Positions 3,020 through 57,741 of a DNA stretch of 64,000 nt are shown here, piece after piece (position 1 is the stretch's first letter; each line of letters begins with the position of its first letter). The translations under genes were made by a program, and so were the position numbers. This DNA comes from Lepraria neglecta (taxonomy: Eukaryota > Ascomycota > Lecanoromycetes > Lecanorales > Stereocaulaceae). The notes under the pieces are model-generated. The model saw nothing but the letters and a program-made list of their open reading frames with translations. It was not told the DNA's origin and searched no databases. Where the stretch lies: contig CM065648.1 in the NCBI GenBank assembly GCA_033220425.1, positions 4,774,001-4,838,000 on the forward strand, written 5' to 3'.

Positions 3020-6000
3020 TCATGGCTCTTTCGCACTGCCAGACTCGATAGCCTGCTCGAGATTGCCAGATTGGCCAGGAATTTCTGGAAAGGAGTCGGC
3101 ATGGACAGCATCGTTCTCGAGGTTGTTGAGCCGCTCCCTCTCCTTATCCGTGGGGTCATCCTTGGGCTGCGCAGGGTATGATTCCGGCCCAGTGGATGTG
3201 GAGACAGGTGCTTTAGCCGAAGGTGCCGTAGACGAAGAGAAGACATCCGGCTGGCGTTTGCAAAACCATCCTCCTCGTTCCCACTCACCCGGCTCGTAAA
3301 GACAGCTCTCTCGCGTTCGCTCTTCGAAAATACCAGAGAGTAAGACGCTCAGTCGCTTGAAATCAATGGGCTTGAGGATCCAGCCGTCGAAGCCTGCGTC
3401 TATATATTCTTCACGATTCTTCTCAATTAAGGAAGCCGATACAGCGAAAATGGGGACTCTGCCATTCAACTCTGCCCGCTTTGACAAGGACTTGTTGGGA
3501 TTAGACTTTTCGAATGATCGAATCATCTTGGTCGAGGTCAGACCATCCACAATAGGCATCTAGTACCAAAGGTTAGTATGCCTTGTGCAGCATCAAATTA
3601 CATATTACTAACCTGCATGTCCATCAAGACCACATCAAAGGATGCAGGCTTATCTCCGTAAGCACTAGAGCACTCTTCACCATTAATAGTGAGGTGGACT
3701 TGATGGCCAATCTTCTCTAGCCTCTTTTGGAGGATTTTGCTGTTGATGGGATCATCTTCGGCGACCAGCGCTTGAAGCTTATCAGCGTTGAACGGCTGTT
3801 CATGCCCATCACTTCTATTCGGGATGTCAAATAGCACACGCGACGGCGTGCGTGGGGGGAATCCGCGAGGAGGTTGTTCAGAGACAGGCGAACCTGTACT
3901 GGTTTCTCCGGGCATCCGTATTGGCTTGATTGGGGTCTTTTCGTCGGTAACATTTGCTATACCAGGGCCTTCTCGCTGCTGTAGGGCTTGGTCTGAGGTT
4001 GATTGCGGTTTTGAAAGTCCGCTAATCCGAGCACGCGAGGATGATGCCGAACCTGGTCTCCGTTGCCGACGACTAGACGTTTTTGCAACATCACCGTCTG
4101 CATCCCCTGGCGCGTCTTTTGAAGTTGTATGTGGTTCTTGAATTGCCTCGATAAGCCGATCAACGTCACTCCTTGCACTCGATCCACTCCTAAAACTCTT
4201 CATGCTGTTTACACTGTGCACGCTCTCTGTACTTTTGCGGTGCACCATTTTCGTTGGAGTCCATGGCGATGGCTTCTGCACGCTCTTATTAACGAGCATG
4301 AATTCACCTGTCTCAATAGGTGGCGTCGACGGTTGATTCGAGGGCGGCCGGACAGCTGCTGCCTTTGCGTCCTCCAGAGTCCCTGGCTCTTGTACGTCTT
4401 GGGGCAAATTCAAGCCCAATTGTATCACAAAGCGCGACCCTTCACCTTCTTCGGACTTCACTCTTAGCTGACCGTTCATGTTGCGCACTATTCGAGCCAC
4501 AAGTGCTAGACCAAGCCCAAGTGTCCTTTGGTCTTTCCCTCCTCCCTTAATACTTTTGGGATCAGGAGCGAGCTTTTCTTGTAATCCTTCATCGCTCTCA
4601 GATTGCACCTGCTCAAGATCTCTGAAGAGCCCATCGAGCTTTTCTGGACTCATTCCAACTCCAGTATCTTGCACGACAACATCGATCTCGGCGCGATCTC
4701 CGACGCGATTGGACAGCCACGTTTCAACCTTAATGGCACCACTTGATGTATGCTGAATAGCATTGGCCGTGACATTGGAAATTGCTTGTCGTATGCGTCT
4801 TTGGTCTCCCATGACAAATTGGGGCACTCCTGGCATTTCAACAACTTCGTATCCAATGTTCTTGCGCTTTGCATCGCCCGTGAAGGGATTTGTTGCTTCC
4901 CTGATGGTCGCAGGCAGATCGAATACCTCGTCCTTGATTAGATTGTGACCTTCCTCGGTCTTCGTTAGATCAAGCAAGTCATTGATAACATATATAAGTG
5001 ACTTTGATGCTGAGTGTGATCTCGATAAATTGTCCCGGGTTTCCTGATCAATCGTGCCTTCAAGAGCAATCTCGAGGTAATTAATGATGGCGTTGAGGGG
5101 CGTTCTGACTTCGTGTGCGGAATTGGCAAGCAAAAGTCTGGTCAGCTGGCTGTTCTGAAGCGCTGCCTCTTTTTGCCTCCAAACCTCAATAAACTTCCCA
5201 TAAACTAAACACAGGACAGCTGCTGTCTCGATTTGCTCCTCTGTCCATTCTCTACATTTTCCCACAACGGTCTCGCTCCAGGTCCTGAAACTTTTCCTCG
5301 GTTCGAGGTAGCCTTCTGTACCCTCTTTGACGAACTTCACGTAAGGATTGCCTGCCCATTTCACTTCTCGAGTTTGACCCCCTCGGAAAAAGACAATAAA
5401 GTCACTACCGGACACTGACAGAGGCACGAGCAGAAGACCAGAAATTATCGTAAAGCCTGGTGGATATCGCAAGTCTGGGAAGTCGATTCGGATATCTGTA
5501 GAGTTAGTCACCGATGTAATTTTCCGAAGCCTAAGATATTCAAGCATCGCCAAAGCTTCTTGCGTTTGCTCAAGTCTCCCGAGAATCTTGGTTTCATCTC
5601 GAATCGAGAGGAGGCCGTAGTCCGCATCGAATAATTTCAGCAGGTCGTCAGAAGAGGCGATGATGTATCCAGAGGGTTTGCTTTCCGTAGGTACGGTGTT
5701 GATGAGCTTCCGAGCCTGTAATCTGGAGGCATATGATAGTCGCTCAATATTTCGTGACGCAGAATCCCCCACTAGGCGGCACATCTTTCGGATGGGAAAT
5801 GATACGCGCATGCCTTTCGAACCATACGCATGGCAGGCAATGAGCCCCCAAAGCTCGTCAAAGGCATTGATCGATATTGACATAGAAGCCCGGACGGCCA
5901 TGTGTGAAAGGTATTTGATGTGGATTGGAGACATTGCCCGGAGGTAAGCGAATGTTAGATCCAGAGGCGTTTCAAGATCCTCCATTGTTCGACATACCAA

Positions 6001-7644
6001 TCGAGAAGTCTCTTGGTCGCGATCGTATAATAGCCTTACTTTGTTAATCTTATAGAGATCTCGAGCTTGTTTAGGTATGTCGGATGCAGGAAAATTGAGG
6101 CCTTTATATAGATCTTTTGTCGCTCGTGGATCCACCAGCTCGGTCACAACTCTGCCATTCCATGACTGATCGAATTGGTAGATCATGACACGATGAAACC
6201 CTGTCAATTCCTTGACGACACCAACTAGGATTTTGAGAAATGAGTCAAGGGTTTTGGCGTTTGCTAGCTGCTCTTGAACTTGCGACATAATATTGAAGAC
6301 TTCCATTGCTGCCGCTTCGCCTTTGCGCTTCCTCGCACTGCGAAGAACCCGCAGGGGTTTGCTGGAGTTAACAGTGCTCTCTGCGTATTCTTCGGGGGTG
6401 GGATTGCTGTGGAGAGTATCTTCTGGAGGCTCTGGAGTCCCTTCGCCGGCGGGTACCAAAGGATTCACTTGGTCATCTTCCAATTCGAATTCGCAAATGA
6501 TTAGATCGCGATTGTTCTCATTTGTATGCATGGCGCACCACATTTTTTGCGTTTTCTTTGCCGGTGATCGTATCCCCAAAGTGAAGACTTCGGGTCCGTT
6601 CGTTGCTGGATCGACTTCCTCGTCTCTGATGAAGTCTATATGGTCCAAAAGATTGTCTGTCTGCTCTTCAGATAGGATATCCGTGAAACTCTCAAGAGCA
6701 AATAATTGCTTCGGACTATAGCCAATGATACGTTTGGAGTTTTCGCTGACAACCCTGACTTGTAACTTGCCATCCTCAATCTCTTGTAGAGCGATAAGCA
6801 AGCCAAAACCCTGCACAGCACCTGGTATATGTATTGGCTCGTCTTCGCATCGTTGGAGTGTATCGCCATCCCGGCCAATGATGACTGCATGACCTTCCTC
6901 TGTCACGACATGCTTGAATCGGGCGGTAAGAAGGCCACTCTCCTCTGAAATGCTCTTGGCGGAACCTGCTGCGCTTTGAGCATCATCTTCGCCTCGGGAG
7001 TCTGTTGTTTGAGACTTCATCGAAGCAGTATCCATGAAAGTCTGCATCTGCCTTGATCCTCCCATGAGTTCTCCCTTTTCTCTTGGGGGTGACTGTCCTT
7101 TCCGAACTTGTGCGGTCGTGCTTTGCGCCTCGGTTTCCTGACGTGGCGAGGCTTGTGGTTCTGATCCCCTTCGACGCCGTAAGGGTGAGTCAGCCGGTGC
7201 CAGATCTGGCGTTGATTCGAGAGAATGCCCACTGCCTTTGGAGAACTGGCGTGAGCGGTCACTGGTCGCACTACTTGGTATTGACATTCCCGGAAAGCCA
7301 CCCCCGCCCGCTGTATCGACTCTGGGCCTGGGCGTAGGTGTAGGGTCGACCGAAACCACGGACCTAATGGGAAAAACGCGGTCCGTAGCGGAGGGGCTCA
7401 TTTGACCGAAGGGAGAGTCGGAGGGTACTGACGATGGCGAGCTCAGGCCATATATTTCTTGGACATTCGATCTCCAAGGTGTGAATTGGGCCTCGGTGCC
7501 CCGTGAATGTTGGTCCCGCGAGCGTGGATCGGAGAAGGAACGCTGATGGGGCGATCGTGGCGGAGGTCTTTCCGTAGCTGGTGAGGCTGGAAGCTCTTGC
7601 GGAGGGTCTGACCCTGACGACATTTTGAGAGACAGAGGATTCAA
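3020..7644 (-). CDS. Fungal phytochrome, hybrid histidine kinase with response-regulator domain
   Basis: Red/far-red photoreceptor of the fungal FphA/BphP class: it senses light through a bilin and signals by His-Asp phosphotransfer. Two exons joined across a 53-base intron (3560-3612) give about 1523 residues. A disordered Ser/Pro-rich N-terminus of about 230 residues comes first. Next is a PAS segment with Cys266 in CEDEPIHIPG, the usual bilin-attachment position of this class, then a GAF domain with ASDIPKQAR and a PHY region. The HisKA H-box SAHEVRTPLN has His844. The HATPase domain has N-box NAIQHT, G1 box DTGVGM and the LGLGLALV segment. The receiver domain has VAEDDPIN and VLMDMQMP with Asp1342, where the intron falls one residue after Asp-Met-Gln. 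All catalytic residues are present, so it looks functional. A transposon relic begins about 300 bases upstream of the start. Confidence 0.96.
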
Positions 7645-7944
7645 TTGGCGAGACTCGCTCCTGCAGCTGTAGATTTCAGTCTATCCAAGACGGGGCGTTT
7701 CTCAGCTGTTGGCAACGGTGGGTTAAAGGTGGAGGGACGCGGTCCAAGGGTACATAGGCTGTCTTCCTCACAATGTTTGACCATTGTCTGATGGCGACAA
7801 ATCACCCATCCAGTTCTCTCCAAGGATGCTGAGCTTGTGGGCGTGGTGACTGCGATGTCGTTTTGTGTGGCAGTGCTTATCATCGAAGTGTGGCGATCAT
7901 GGATCCAGCCAAAAGTGGTGCCCAATAACCCTAATTCCCTGTTT
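7645..7944. other. Phytochrome 5' flank
   Basis: About 300 bases between the phytochrome start and the transposon. It holds a 94-codon minus frame with no recognisable sequence. I read it as promoter and 5' UTR. Confidence 0.45.
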
Positions 7945-17201: not shown

Positions 17202-18329
17202 TCAGGCAGGTTTCGAGTTGATGAGATTGTCGAACTCATGCAACTCTTTTTCAGGCATTGGGTATGTGTGTTCAGGGGCTGGGTATGCCCGGCTCTTGAC
17301 TTCGGCTAGTCACATGTTAGCAAACAGAATGTCGTAAGAGGAATGACAACGTACTCTTATAGTTTGAGATTGCTCTCATACTCTCACTCCAAACGTCGCC
17401 ATATTGCTTGACGAATTTGGGAAGAAATCGGCCCGGTGGGAAGTTGCCGGACATGTCGACCTGAACCAAGACCTGCCCGGAGCAGCCGTTTCCAGCGCCG
17501 ATACCAATGGTTGGGATCCTCAGCTTCTTTGTGATAATGCCTGCTACCTCAGAAGGTACAGCTTCGAGGACGACCGCAAAGCAGCCCGCTTCTTGTACGG
17601 CCATAGCGTCTTCCAGGACTTTCAGAGCGCCGAGGGTGGTCTTGCCTTGAACCCTGAAGCCACCCAGGGTATTCTGACGCTGGGGTGTGAGGCCAACATG
17701 GCCGACGACTGGGATGCCTGCTCGGACGATACGTTCGATTGTGGGTGCCATCTCCATGCCGCCTTCGAGCTTGACGCCTTGGACGCGGCCTTCCTTGACT
17801 ACTCGGATTGCGGAATCGACGGCTTGTTCGGGAGAGATTTCATAGGAGCCCATAGGCAGATCACCGACCCAGATGTGATGTGAGCTTATGTTCGTTGTCA
17901 TGGCGGACTTAGCAGGACGTGACGACATACTGTGAAGGCTCCTTTAGTGGCATGTGCCACACTTCTGCAATGCAATATCATCTCTTCAAGCACCACTTCG
18001 CTTGTATCCTCCATGCCCAATGCAACCATAGCCAGACTGTCTCCAACCAGGATCATGTCCATGCCAGCAGCATCGGCGACATGGGCACTCGGGAAGTCAT
18101 GGGCGGTGATCATAGTAATGGGCTCTTGTTTCTTGTAGAGAGATTGTAGAGTATTGATCGTGGTCTTCTTCCTTGGATTGGCTGATGGCGTACCCAAGGG
18201 AGAGTGTGAGCTTTGTCGGGTCTGATATGTTGAGATTGCGACCGGGCGCACGACAAGCACTGGGAGAGGTCGACAGGAGGATTGTATGGCTTTCTGGAGA
18301 ATTTGTGGTCGCATGATGCGGTGAGCCAT
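17202..18329 (-). CDS. panB: 3-methyl-2-oxobutanoate hydroxymethyltransferase (PanB)
   Basis: Makes ketopantoate from 2-oxoisovalerate and methylene-tetrahydrofolate, the first committed step to pantothenate and CoA. The Arg-rich, acid-poor N-terminus fits mitochondrial import. Visible motifs: ITAHDFPSAHVADAAGMD, LVGDSLAMV (metal site), VGDLPMGSYE, VKLEGG, PVVGHVGLTPQ, VVLEAVP (catalytic Glu) and IGIGAGNGCSGQVLV. Three exons: 18329-17931, 17868-17355 and 17305-17202. Joined, they give 338 residues in frame, but the expected acceptor of intron 1 (17869-17930) reads CATCTGG rather than CATCTAG. The only AG in the normal distance range ends at 17885 and shifts the frame. The second intron is normal. 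The family is certain; whether this copy splices correctly is open. Confidence 0.9.
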
Positions 18330-19142
18330 TGCCTCAACCTGCTTCTTTCGGGGAAATTCGTGATGGTATTGATGGATCCGATAGAGGGTACGCTCCTGAT
18401 GATGATAGAATATCCATTGTTCCGACGTTGAGTGAGCAGTTTATTAATACAGAAGCCATGATGGTGAGTGCGTTGAAGATTTGATACTGGCGATAGAATT
18501 TCTTTGAAGCCCGGAGCTACGCCGGCTTTCCGGCGACTTCCCGCTTGCGGTTTAGCGTGGCGGCGATCAGGAACCAGTTCCGTTATGGCCTCGGCAGTCA
18601 CCAGAGTATCTCTGTTTCTGAGCGTGTAGCTTTGGTAGAGAGGACTGAGTAGCTGTAGAGACTGAGTGAGGTAGTTGTAGCAAAGTTGACGTATGGCACC
18701 TGCTTGAAGAATCCGGGGTTCAGGCACCTAGAGATGCGGACTGGGTCCAGATTACTGCCGCGATTGCCCGAATCTCATGACCACACCACCGGGTCCCCAA
18801 TGAATGTCCTTTGTCTTCTTGTCACTATCTCCTTTGCCGACTGTCCCTGCCTGATTGCGGATACAAGCACGTCAAGTAAATACCACGCCATCCGATAAAG
18901 AGAAAGAGTTCAACCCTGAAGCTTACGAAAGCTATCCGAGGTCGAACACATAAAGCAACCACTTTGCCAGCACGGAGAACAAGGCTTCCATTTCCGGTCA
19001 CACAAAGCCACAGACCCAGTCTTCCAGTAATCCTCCATCGCACATCATACGCAGTTCGGGCCAGCGGATTTCAGAATACCAATAAACAAGGAGACACAAG
19101 AATCGGAGGGCTGCCCGCGAACTTGGACGAACAGGCGGCAGG
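18330..19142. other. Divergent intergenic between PanB and UBC8-type genes
   Basis: About 810 bases with overlapping frames on both strands and no recognisable protein. Likely two promoters. Confidence 0.45.
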
Positions 19143-20202
19143 ATGAGTAGTCCGAAGAGGAGGATCGAGACGGATGTAAGTGGGACTACAAGAGATGGGT
19201 GAACATGAAGGAAAGACGGCATGCTAATATGGTGCTTCGGCTGTGCGTATAGGTCATGAAGTGAGTCATGTTCGTTCAAGGAAAATACAAAACTTTGTAC
19301 TGACGCTCGGTCGTAGGATGTATGCAACACCAGCCAATGGGATCATGTCTCACTTGACAGCTTTATATCCAATCTCAAGGGACTAACACGATGTTCAGGC
19401 TGATGAGCGATTATGAGGTGACGCTGGTCAACGACAACAGTGAGTGATGTGCAAGATCTCGGACCAGACAATGGACAAGCAATACTAATTCCATGATAGT
19501 GTATGTCTAAGCAGTCCTGGTCGAATAAAATGCGAGTTTGGAGGAGATCCGCTCACGTTTAGATACTTTTTAGGCAAGAATTCTACGTCCGATTCAAGGG
19601 GCCTGAAGAAAGTATGTCCGGAATTTGCGATTTGTTGACCTCGTTGGACCTAACTCATGGCTTTACTTGTTTAGCACCATTCAAGGGCGGACTTTGGAAA
19701 ATTCACGTCGAGTTGCCGGATCAGTACCCATACAAGAGTCCCAGCATCGGCTTCGTCAACCGCATCTTCCACCCAAACATTGATGAAATGTATGACTCGC
19801 TTGCATTCTAAACAAAGCACGTACTGATTAGCAAAGCTCCGGCTCGGTTTGTCTCGATGTCATCAACCAGACCTGGTCGCCAATGTTCGACATGATCAAC
19901 ATATTTGAGGTTTTCCTACCTCAGCTCCTGCGATATCCTAACCCAACGGATCCTTTGAACGGAGAAGCGGCTGCTCTGTTGATGCGGGACCCGAAGACTT
20001 ATGAGACTAAAGTCAAAGGTGCGATCATATTCAAAAGGCAGATCGGAGCATCTGGTTGACCATTGCAGAATACGTTTCGAAGTACGCTACCAAGGATGCA
20101 GCAGACGAAGCCGGTGACGAGGAAGATGAAGAGAGTGAGATGAGTTCAGTAGGCGGCTTTGGTTCTGACGATGAAGAACCGGCAGGGCAAATGGAGGTTT
20201 GA
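19143..20202 (+). CDS. ubc8: Ubiquitin-conjugating enzyme E2, UBC8/UBE2H type, nine exons including 3-base and 1-base exons
   Basis: E2 enzyme; in yeast Ubc8 serves the GID/CTLH ligase in turnover of gluconeogenic enzymes. Exons: 19143-19175, 19253-19260, 19317-19319, 19399-19439, 19500, 19574-19611, 19675-19789, 19837-20018 and 20069-20202. Together they make 555 bases, or 184 residues. Motifs: [54 protein letters not shown], catalytic Cys about 85 in SGSVCLDV, then [12 protein letters not shown] and an acidic tail. The 3-base exon GAT supplies the end of Lys and the start of the Met in KMLM. The 1-base exon T makes the middle of the Met in NMQEF. Each flanking intron has its own GT donor, AG acceptor and CTAAT/CTGAC-like branch site. 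Leaving out the single T breaks the frame. Confidence 0.9.
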
Positions 20203-20520
20203 ACTCTCATCACGCCCTGTCGCGAGTACATAATTTGTACATTGGTTGATGAGCATTGAATATCGATGGGCATTCTGGGTAGCGATATGGGAGTTAGGAA
20301 TTTTGGAGAAGGGACTAAATCCAGGCATGTAGCATTTGTGGGAGTATTTCTTTGTTCATATCACATGAGATCAATCGAATTGATGGTCAGTAATTAACCC
20401 ATTTCTATGCTTTCTATCCTGCCTCTATGATTACCGTCATCCCCATGCGTTTCCATCCTGCCTTTATTCAGTTTAGTTTGACTCTATGGTTTTTATGAAA
20501 CCCCGCCGAAGATTTAATGT
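20203..20520. other. Intergenic after UBC8-type gene
   Basis: Likely 3' UTR and the downstream flank of the decayed zinc-finger copy. Nothing else seen. Confidence 0.4.
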
Positions 20521-54165: not shown

Positions 54166-54398
54166 GCTTACAGAGCCATCGTCAGTTTGCGGAGACCAGG
54201 TTCTGGTCCGCAAAATTAAGATTATCTTATCTCGGGACGATCTATTTAGCCTTGAAGCACGCCATCGCATCGGGCAATTTGGTAATTGCGTGGCGGAAAA
54301 AAGTTATTCAGCAACGACGTCGTGCTTTTCTTTTTTGATTTTGTCTTGATTTTGCCTTGTTTTTGCCTCTGCATTTCAGCGGTGTTTCTTTACACATC

Positions 54399-57300
54399 AT
54401 GCATTTACAACCAGCGGAGTCCAATGGCCCTGCGCCAGTGCCCCAGCCAGTTCACGAAGGACCTAAGAAGCCACTCAAGAAATTCAAGCAGCACTCTACA
54501 GGCTTTCCTTTCGGCCAGCCTACTTCTCTGAAGTCATTTGGTGGACCTACCTACGTGACCGCGCAGACGTTGATCCAGCAAGTTGCCTACACCTTGTCTG
54601 ACAGGCTATGGACATACTCGCCCGAGACATTTGATCTCGATGTCGCTATCAAGGACTGGTTCAAAGAAGGGGCACAAAATGTCTATGGGTACGCTACGAA
54701 CGTCGAGTCGATGCAGATTCGACAGGGCGCCGCGTCAATTGCTCTGGGCTACATCTTCTCTAAAGACTTCGACCTCAAGAAGCGCTATGTTCCTCAGTCG
54801 ATCCTCGCATCCTCGTCGACCCTACAATACCTTCGTGCGGCACTAGATCAACTGTCCCTCTTGTATTCGGTCGCCAGTCCTTTCGTTGCTCATATCGCGG
54901 CCATCGACTACGCAGGGGCTTCCTCCCAGCTTGTCACCGACTATGTGTCCGCACTGTCGCTGGCAGAAGAGTTAGGATTTGGGATGGTATCTTCATTCTC
55001 TGCATACGAGGCACAGCACATGTCCTTGTTCTCTACATTGCTTGCATGCGTCATTCCGACTATCCACATCTACGACGGCGTCAGTGTCGGGCGAGAAACC
55101 ACAAGGGTTATCGATGTACTCGATCAAGCTGGACTTCATAATACCTATAAGGCTGTGCAGCATGAAATCTCCGCACCGGGAAAGAAGAATGCGAGTTTGG
55201 ATACAAAGGTGCTCCAATTATTGAACGCCTTCAACGGCGAGCTTGGCACGCAGTACGGACTCTTCGAATATCATGGGCATGCCACGCCAGACTCCGTGCT
55301 TGTGGTCTTTGGCACGGTGGAGTCATCGCTGGCTTCACAAGTGGCCCTGTCCCTCGAGAGAGATGGTGCAAAGGTCGGAGTCTTGAACGTCAGAGTCTAC
55401 AGGCCTTTCGTTGAGGAGGCATTTCTCAACTCGATGCCTGAATCAGTGAGGACAATCGGTGTCCTTGGTCAGGTTCAGGACACACAGGCTGTATCAGACG
55501 GCAGTGTCCGATCGAACCTCTATGGCGATGTAATGGCAGCTGTAACATTTTCCAACAAGTGGACCACACCTCCAGCTGTGATCGATGTGAAGTACCCAAG
55601 AGAAACAGTCTGGACGCCTGTTTCTATTGCAGCTGCATTTCAATTGCTCGTCAAGAAGCCTATCCTGCAATCACAAAAACAAACAGACGGTTCCGAAGCA
55701 CCTTCTCCTCTACAGCTGTTAGACCCAACGTCTGTTCAGCAGTACACGTTCTGGGATTTCGATACCTCATCTTCAGCTAATGCGCCAACCGCGCTTGGAC
55801 AGGCCTTGGCAACGGATTCTTCGAAAAATGTCACAACTAAGACAGGGTATGACAATTTGCTTCAAGGCGGAGTCTTCCGAACCGATATTCGCAAGTCTGC
55901 GAAGTCAATTGAGGCTTCTTACTCCATCGATGCTGCGGACGTGGCGTATATTGGTGAGGCTGGACTACTCAAAGATTTCGACATCTTGAATGGCGTTAAA
56001 GCTGGTGGCAAGGTAATACTCAAGCTGCCAGGCGTAAAGGACGATGATCTTGAAAGCAAGCTACCGGTCGAATTTCGGAAGGCTTTGAGTGCTAGGTCAG
56101 CCCAGCTTTACATCTTCGATCCGCCAGCCGTGGAAGTTATAGCTAACGACCCGGCGCTGGAAACATACCTGATGCAGATAGCGTTCTTGCGCGTTGCACT
56201 GCCAACCTTCGAGAAAGTCGGTTTGCAGAAGCTGGCGTCTGTCAATGGAACGATTGAGACGCTGGAAGAACTGGCCAAGGTTTTGGACAACGCTCTGCGA
56301 CTTATTGAAGTGCCCAAGGAATGGGCGACAGCAGCAATTGAGGGTTCCATTCTCTCTCTGCCCAAAGACATCCATGTCAACAGCTTTGATGCTTTCGAAA
56401 AGATTGAGGTGGAGCCACCAACATACCTCAAAGACTGGAAAACTGCAGCGAAAGGCTTGGCTTTCAAGGAAGCGTACGGGACAAAGCCGGCTCTCCGCCC
56501 CGACTTAGCAGTTAAAACACATACCGTGCATGTACAGGAGAATCGTAGACTCACGCCTCTAACGTACGATCGAAATATCTTCCATATCGAATTTGACTTG
56601 GGCGACTCAGGTCTGAAATACGACATTGGAGAAGCTCTTGGGATTCACGCGGAGAACGACGAGACTGAGGTGCAAGATTTTATCAGGTTCTACAAGCTAG
56701 ACCCAGAAGAAATTGTCGAAGTCCCCAGCCGCGAAGACCCAAGGGTGCTCGAGAATCGGACAGTCTACCAAGCTCTCATGCAAAACGTCGACATCTTTGG
56801 TCGACCACCAAAACGCTTTTATGAAGCTTTGGCAGAGTTCGCAGATGAACCAAAGGAAAAGACAGAGCTCACAACGCTGGGAGGTCCCACAAAAGAAGGC
56901 AATCAAGAGTTCAAACGCAGGGCGGAGGTCGATACCGTCACCTATGCCGACATTCTGCTAGAGTTTCCATCAGCTCATCCAAGCTTCCACGACATTGTTC
57001 GGATAGTGAGCCCCATGAAGCGCCGCGAGTATTCCATTGCCTCCTGTCAAAAGGTCACCCCAAATAGCGTTGCTCTGATGATCGTTGTGGTCGGATGGGT
57101 CGACCCCCAGGGCCGCGATAGGTTCGGTCAAGCCACTCGCTACCTCAATAAGATGAGAGTTGGCGCACCTGTTACCGTCTCAATCAAACCGAGCGTCATG
57201 AAGCTCCCACCCAAATCTACGCAGCCACTCATCATGGCGGGTCTTGGTACGGGTCTTGCACCCTTCCGGGCTTTCGTCCAGCATCGCGCTTGGGAGAAAG

Positions 57301-57741
57301 CTCAGGGCAAAGAGATCGGAGCTGTGTTGCTTTACATGGGCTCGAGACATCAACGTGAAGAATATTGCTACGGTGAGGAGTGGGAAGCATACCAGGATGC
57401 GGGTGTTATTACGCTTCTTGGTCGTGCTTTCTCGCGTGATCAGCCTCAGAAGATCTACATCCAGGATCGGATGAGGCAGACATTGAATGACATCATCCAA
57501 GCCTACCTGAAGGAGGAAGGAGCTTTCTATCTCTGTAAGTGTTCCCTGTATCATGTTTCTCGGGAAGCAGCATGGCTAATGCATGGTCCCAGGTGGTCCC
57601 ACATGGCCGGTACCCGATGTCACCAACGTGCTTGAGGATGCTATCGCTAGGGACGCTAAGACTCTTGGTAAAAAGGTGAAACCAGGCAACGAGATTGAGA
57701 AGTTGAAGGATCAGTTGCGATATGTGCTCGAGGTCTACTGA
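54399..57741 (+). CDS. MET10: Sulfite reductase (NADPH) flavoprotein alpha subunit
   Basis: Carries electrons from NADPH through FAD to the hemoprotein beta subunit, which reduces sulfite to sulfide for Cys/Met synthesis; cytosolic. Exons 54399-57534 and 57593-57741 give 1094 residues. The N-terminal half resembles pyruvate:ferredoxin oxidoreductase domains, as in fungal MET10 (ASIALGYIFS, then VSVGRETTRVID). FAD-binding region: NIFHIEFDLGDSGLKYDIGEALGIHAEND read in parts, and RREYSIASCQKV. NADPH part: MAGLGTGLAPFRAFVQHR, YMGSRHQREEYCYGEE, then YLCGGPTWPVPDV across the intron, ending DQLRYVLEVY with the terminal aromatic residue usual in this family. I chose the start MHLQPAESN over in-frame upstream non-ATG codons. 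Confidence 0.95.

Follow-up and report, generated by a model that had tools for sequence, protein, structure and literature searches.

Results

We analysed a 64,000-nucleotide stretch of Lepraria neglecta DNA (positions 4774001-4838000 of contig 3; hereafter, the window), which belongs to an intron-rich genome of 42.0 Mb in 11 contigs. At 19143..20202 of the window, the forward strand carries a gene for a ubiquitin-conjugating enzyme (E2) of the UBC8/UBE2H type, which we reconstructed as nine coding exons encoding 184 amino acids. The product matches the Pfam domain UQ_con (PF00179) at 7e-40, scoring 136.3 bits where the family cut-off is 27. In a search of PDB sequences, its best solved relatives were yeast Ubc8 (8pmq_E; 1.3e-71, 243.6 bits; 63% identity) and human UBE2H (6.4e-67, 228.4 bits; 56% identity), and the next E2 past the top five rows fell to 96.4 bits (near 2e-26). 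These matches bear out the UBC8-type assignment made by a model from the letters of the DNA and its open frames (the sequence-only reading). Cys85 stands opposite the active-site Cys of the human chain 2z5d_A (human context SGTVCLDV); the yeast alignment row carries the native Cys, and the 8pmq chain has Lys at the active-site position.

A search of the genome with UBC8 returned 18 matches, three of which are its own exons. As the other 15 are 28-44% identical, no second copy of the gene was found in this search, which scores its best candidates only. Searches for UBC8 orthologues gave no fungal gene, either among viral contigs (where none of 12 and 167 stretches with the pattern was confirmed) or among prokaryote contigs (three archaeal or bacterial loci at 28-35% identity).

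A ketopantoate hydroxymethyltransferase fragment (17317-17943; Pantoate_transf, 9.8e-71) lies on the reverse strand, upstream of UBC8. Elsewhere in the window, we noted a long open frame for a phytochrome-type histidine kinase on the reverse strand (3601-7680; PAS_2, GAF, PHY, HisKA and HATPase_c) and, on the forward strand, an open frame (54339-57632) whose FAD_binding_1 and POR domains we take to be of a type found in sulfite reductase flavoprotein subunits. The G+C content is 0.50 in the window, 0.45 at 1.0-1.1 Mb of contig 1 and 0.42 at 2.0-2.1 Mb of contig 2 (L013-L032); the latter two 100-kb stretches hold 15 and 10 open frames of at least 250 codons, fewer per kb than the window with its 13 in 64 kb. 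The genome thus seems uneven in gene density or repeat content.

The coding sequence of UBC8 begins with exon 1 (19143-19175, 33 nt) and then passes through microexons of 8, 3 and 1 nt, all of which fall inside 53 coding bases. Exon 2, the 8-nt microexon GTCATGAA, lies at 19253-19260 and, like exon 1, was rebuilt by spliced alignment and path scoring. Intron 2 (19261-19316, 56 nt; GTGAGT..TACTGAC..CGTAG) separates it from exon 3, the trinucleotide GAT at 19317-19319, whose G ends the Lys14 codon and whose AT starts the Met15 codon of VMKMLMSD. Beyond intron 3 (19320-19398, 79 nt; GTATGC..GACTAAC..TTCAG) comes exon 4 (19399-19439, 41 nt), the final letters of which encode NDN and add an A. Intron 4 (19440-19499, 60 nt; GTGAGT..TACTAAT..GATAG) leads to exon 5, the single base T at 19500, which is the middle base of the Met codon in NDNMQEF. 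Intron 5 (19501-19573, 73 nt; GTATGT..CGCTCAC..TTTAG) leads on to exon 6 (19574-19611, 38 nt). Exons 3 and 5 were examined by spliced alignment, path scoring and a chance test, and exons 6 and 7 (19675-19789, 115 nt) were placed by spliced alignment. Exon 8 (19837-20018, 182 nt) holds the active-site Cys, and exon 9 (20069-20202, 134 nt), whose 5' junction was also found in the spliced alignment, encodes the acidic tail and the stop. All eight introns, of 47-79 nt, are GT..AG.

The exon coordinates proposed in the sequence-only reading all check, as does their sum, since exons of 33, 8, 3, 41, 1, 38, 115, 182 and 134 nt give 555 nt including the stop, which is exactly the 185 codons claimed (184 residues and the stop). 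The motifs it quoted around the two smallest exons, TACTGAC..CGTAG/GAT/GTATGC and TACTAAT..GATAG/T/GTATGT, are all present, and the one-base exon has the arrangement TACTAAT-12-GATAG/T/GTATGT, with AG and GT flanks and a usable branch site. It had also stated that omission of GAT deletes one Met in frame and that the frame breaks without T; we found both to be so, the product of T skipping being 98 amino acids long and frameshifted ahead of the active site.

The 78 N-terminal residues of the protein align without a gap to yeast Ubc8. All five PDB sequences listed at E <= 1e-20, of which two are human, are ungapped at Met15; a product made without GAT would be the only one in this set with a gap there. 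The Met of NDNMQEF aligns with a Met of yeast Ubc8, and T is needed both for the frame and for this conserved residue. None of the five PDB relatives has a longer NMQEF loop, and in human and 1yf9 the loop is one residue shorter; because the loop tolerates changes in length, the case for T is made by the frame, the splice sites and the yeast-like Met together, and not by loop length alone.

The same exons are found when the map is withheld. A purpose-written spliced protein-to-DNA aligner, in which exons of 1-2 nt were deliberately permitted for this question, was given yeast Ubc8 or human UBE2H and window positions 18901-20400, with two intron penalties for each query. All eight junctions, including those of GAT and T, were recovered in four of four runs; the human-query alignments begin at codon 5, and all four runs stop in exon 9 ahead of the stop codon. 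With exons of 1-2 nt forbidden, the yeast query gave NDNSEQEF and the human query NDNKFYV, at both penalties (four of four runs). As a control, we aligned 21 other loci of the genome, comprising small GTPases and E2s (L048 being the same gene as L037), with queries entered by hand. The shortest of their 42 distinct internal exons was 10 nt, which indicates that the aligner does not make tiny exons freely. Short exons are frequent in the control loci (the small GTPase loci L047 and L045 have predicted internal exons of 10, 15, 17, 18, 23, 27 and 29 nt), yet none of the 42 internal exons outside UBC8 is under 10 nt.

To score splice sites, we modelled donors, branch sites and acceptors on 60 introns of this genome that had been located through conserved GTPase and E2 proteins; introns flanking terminal exons shorter than 12 nt were excluded before the 60 were counted. 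De novo training of a splice model by coding score over 264 kb yielded no intron set that we used, and the homology-anchored introns were taken instead. Its rounds gave 3 candidates, then 33 kept out of 160, 534, and 61 (median length, 99 nt); we judged the set of 534 to be mostly false, many of its members lying inside coding frames or overlapping on opposite strands. The 60 anchored introns have a median length of 59 nt, with 8 of at least 110 nt and a single one of at least 130 nt. Percentiles against them are approximate, as our aligner itself picked these introns, under a hand-set prior of a generic fungal kind. On this scale, introns 1, 2, 3 and 8 of UBC8 are typical (55-57th percentile), and introns 6, 5, 4 and 7 stand at the 35th, 22nd, 12th and 10th percentiles, respectively. 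The signals around the T exon are on the weak side. The acceptor of intron 4, GATAG/T, is at the 5th percentile (T directly follows the acceptor AG in about 20% of the 60 introns), and the best branch match of intron 5, CGCTCAC, differs from CTRAY.

Between exons 1 and 4, the map with the 8-nt and 3-nt exons came first at 60.7 bits, the next three-intron path reached 55.0 bits, and the map fell to 40.6 bits when GAT was left out, in an enumeration that left out donors below 0 bits and acceptors below 3 bits. Skipping of the 8-nt exon or of GAT was rejected, as either the score drops or residues are lost. From exon 4 to exon 6, enumeration of in-frame, stop-free paths gave none without an intron, six with one intron and 46 with two. 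The path through T reached 31.9 bits and its runner-up 23.9 bits among the two-intron paths, which are fairly compared only among themselves, since more introns bring more score terms. Were the introns merged, they would measure 134 nt around T and 138 nt around GAT.

We also asked how often such exons arise by chance, scanning both strands of 264 kb of the genome (528,000 nt), with the exon itself included in the counts. Among 1,890 AG-N-GT sites, 12 equal or exceed the T exon on both sides and 32 reach its summed score. The base is T at just one of the 12 (the UBC8 exon itself; the others are 8 G, 2 A and 1 C) and at two of the 32. Within the window, the T exon is the only AG-N-GT site at its level on both sides. 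For the 44 usable positions, i.e. those leaving introns of about 45 nt or longer, 0.001 (both sides) or 0.0027 (sum) one-base exons of this quality are expected; requiring T lowers the expectation more than ten times, to 0.0001 and 0.0002, respectively. In 3,000 dinucleotide shuffles, the level on both sides was reached at a rate of 0.07% and the summed score at 0.23%, the latter falling to 0.03% when T was required. Among 1,962 AG-NNN-GT sites, the GAT exon is equalled or exceeded on both sides at 3 and in summed score at 4, itself counted; the expectation is about 0.0003, and none of the 3,000 shuffles produced an equivalent. The one-base exon T is thus more than a chance arrangement, and the observation of the sequence-only reading is confirmed.

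That reading had further held that the splice map must include T. The map with T is indeed both the best-scoring one and the one recovered by realignment, but T is not forced, as the six one-intron routes bypass it in frame and without a stop; given such rivals (NDNSEQEF, NDNKF), 'by far the best-supported' is the proper wording. The in-frame routes without T give up the Met seen in yeast, and the sites on which they depend rank in the bottom 2-3%. None of the six one-intron paths gives NMQEF, and one-intron and no-intron models of exons 4-6 were rejected for this reason. One of these routes takes out a single 130-nt intron (19444-19573) from a donor, GTGATG, four bases downstream, so that the product reads NDNSEQEF, with one residue more and the Met lost, and AG-T-GT is a coincidence. 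It is open and in frame, it is the path on which the aligner fell back with the yeast query, and the NMQEF loop does vary in length in the family. However, its donor is poor, at -0.2 bits (2nd percentile), and four bases upstream of it stands a normal one, GTGAGT, at 6.3 bits; its path totals 10.3 bits versus 31.9 for the T path (which has the score terms of one more intron), its intron is longer than 59 of the 60, and it drops the Met shared with yeast while making the loop longer than in all five PDB relatives listed. We consider it very unlikely. The GTGATG donor at 19444, weak as it is, may allow a minor NDNSEQEF isoform lacking the T exon. The top one-intron path (12.9 bits) instead joins the ordinary donor at 19440 to an acceptor, GCAAG, ending at 19578; this single 139-nt intron would give NDNKFYV, two residues shorter, and predicts that transcripts have no junction from the Met codon to CAAGAATTC. 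It too is in frame and free of stops, and it was the choice of the aligner with the human query once 1-2 nt exons were forbidden. Its acceptor, at 0.8 bits (3rd percentile), lies five bases past an ordinary TTTAG, and the Met, Gln and Glu that it removes are all identical in yeast; we find this path scarcely credible.

An assembly error or a real one-base deletion, by which exon 4 or 6 would lack a base or the gene would be a broken copy with one 134-nt intron, would produce exactly the frame problem seen here. It would, however, leave the acceptor, the branch site, T and the donor as a coincidence expected 0.001-0.003 times, and more than ten times less often when T is required. Elsewhere the gene reads as an open frame, the genome search turned up no second copy, and an intron of 134 nt would be an outlier, all of which make this explanation highly improbable. 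A regulated switch, in which inclusion or skipping of T according to conditions tunes the level of Ubc8, would refine the reading with a one-base exon, so that the odds of the two overlap. Skipping of T would use an ordinary donor and acceptor to give the frameshifted 98-residue product, the total score of intron 4 is below the median, and Trichoderma Xlr2 provides a described case of a microexon acting as a switch (PMC11121469). Since the sites around T are not abnormally weak, we think such a switch unlikely.

Two further candidates were rejected. A stwintron does not fit, because introns 4 and 5 each have uninterrupted splice elements and no in-frame path with a single removal yields NMQEF. 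An introner-type repeat does not fit either, as a 398-nt query (19176-19573) matched itself alone in the genome at E <= 10, with a search tool that skips very common words.

Discussion

Judged by its anatomy, its reading frame, the residues conserved with yeast Ubc8 and splice scores set against the genome's own introns, the locus very probably encodes an E2 mRNA with exons of 8, 3 and 1 nt, from which adjacent ordinary introns would be removed sequentially. Splicing in the cell would presumably follow this map, with T included constitutively rather than under regulation. At 60 and 73 nt, respectively, introns 4 and 5 would be ordinary intron-defined introns of the U2 type, one base apart; intron definition should suffice for two such short introns, both of which are equipped with a donor, a branch site and an acceptor. 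To judge from their size, two spliceosomes cannot flank one base at once, so the two introns would have to leave one after the other. A 5'-to-3' order, with intron 4 removed first, may be slightly favoured, because the donor of intron 5 would then become CAT/GTATGT (7.5 bits) instead of AGT/GTATGT (6.4 bits), a gain of about 1.1 bits. The GAT exon could be made in the same stepwise manner. It is also conceivable, though doubtful, that the one-base exon is itself a regulated or rate-limiting step that sets the level of Ubc8, inclusion giving the full E2 and skipping the truncated product. If true, UBC8 with its three microexons would be evidence that a fungal spliceosome routinely carries out several back-to-back recursive steps in one short transcript.

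Zero-nucleotide ratchet points consist of a juxtaposed acceptor and donor, through which long introns are removed stepwise with no base left. Stepwise removal of introns 4 and 5 would resemble the use of such a point, in that the sites are likewise juxtaposed, but UBC8 keeps one coding base between two short introns. Ratchet points of recursive splicing are treated in PMC8605326.

The statement of the sequence-only reading that one-base exons are extremely rare in eukaryotes is fair, but there are precedents with RNA evidence in plants and in Fusarium (PMC4674806, PMC8831610, PMC12940212). The one-nucleotide exon of Fusarium CYP621A, a G, was described from a comparison of 20 orthologues and 18 SRA reads, and was presented by its authors as the first one-base exon in a fungal gene, that of a rarely expressed P450 (PMC12940212). 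The two cases are alike in that a nuclear gene of a filamentous fungus has AG-one base-GT at a point where a codon of a conserved motif is split, in that omission of the base breaks the frame, and in that an abnormally long merged intron gives the clue (139 nt in F. graminearum, 134 nt in UBC8). In contrast to CYP621A, the base in UBC8 is T, the gene is that of an E2, exons of 3 and 8 nt stand alongside, and the exon is predicted from genomic sequence.

In plants, the 1-nt exon of Arabidopsis APC11 was proven with expression constructs (PMC4674806), and those of APC11 and VPS55 were followed across land plants by RNA-seq and RT-PCR, the VPS55 exon being alternatively included in some species (PMC8831610). 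From what these sources describe, they share with UBC8 a 1-nt coding exon between GT-AG introns, and APC11 and UBC8 are both genes of the ubiquitin pathway. The merged intron of APC11, however, measures 422 nt, unlike the 134 nt of UBC8, and the plant exons are conserved in land plants and backed by RNA, whereas that of UBC8 is predicted from the genome. The argument from one-base spacing to sequential removal was made in the same form for Arabidopsis APC11, and a plant case in which the second intron is removed first is cited in the same paper (PMC4674806). The stwintrons of ascomycetes (PMC5639578, PMC6616335, PMC12403724, PMC9024468) are similar in that two consecutive splicing reactions take place at an apparent single long intron of filamentous fungi. 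In a stwintron, however, the inner intron sits within a splice element of the outer one and nothing is retained between the two; in UBC8, the elements are contiguous and one base has to be kept. In the literature on UBC8 introns and exons in fungi, judged by title and the start of the abstract, we found nothing on this point.

One-base exons as such are thus already known, and the UBC8 case differs from them in its base, in the kind of gene and in having exons of 3 and 8 nt nearby. If confirmed, UBC8 would be, to the extent of our literature search, the second nuclear gene of a fungus in which a one-base exon is recognised, and it is the gene of a conserved enzyme with no second copy found, as against a rarely expressed P450. 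Ordinary annotation could misread a conserved enzyme such as this one. With exons of 8, 3 and 1 nt and introns of 47-79 nt in one small gene, UBC8 would make a compact test bed, in which the order of removal of closely packed introns could be tested directly.
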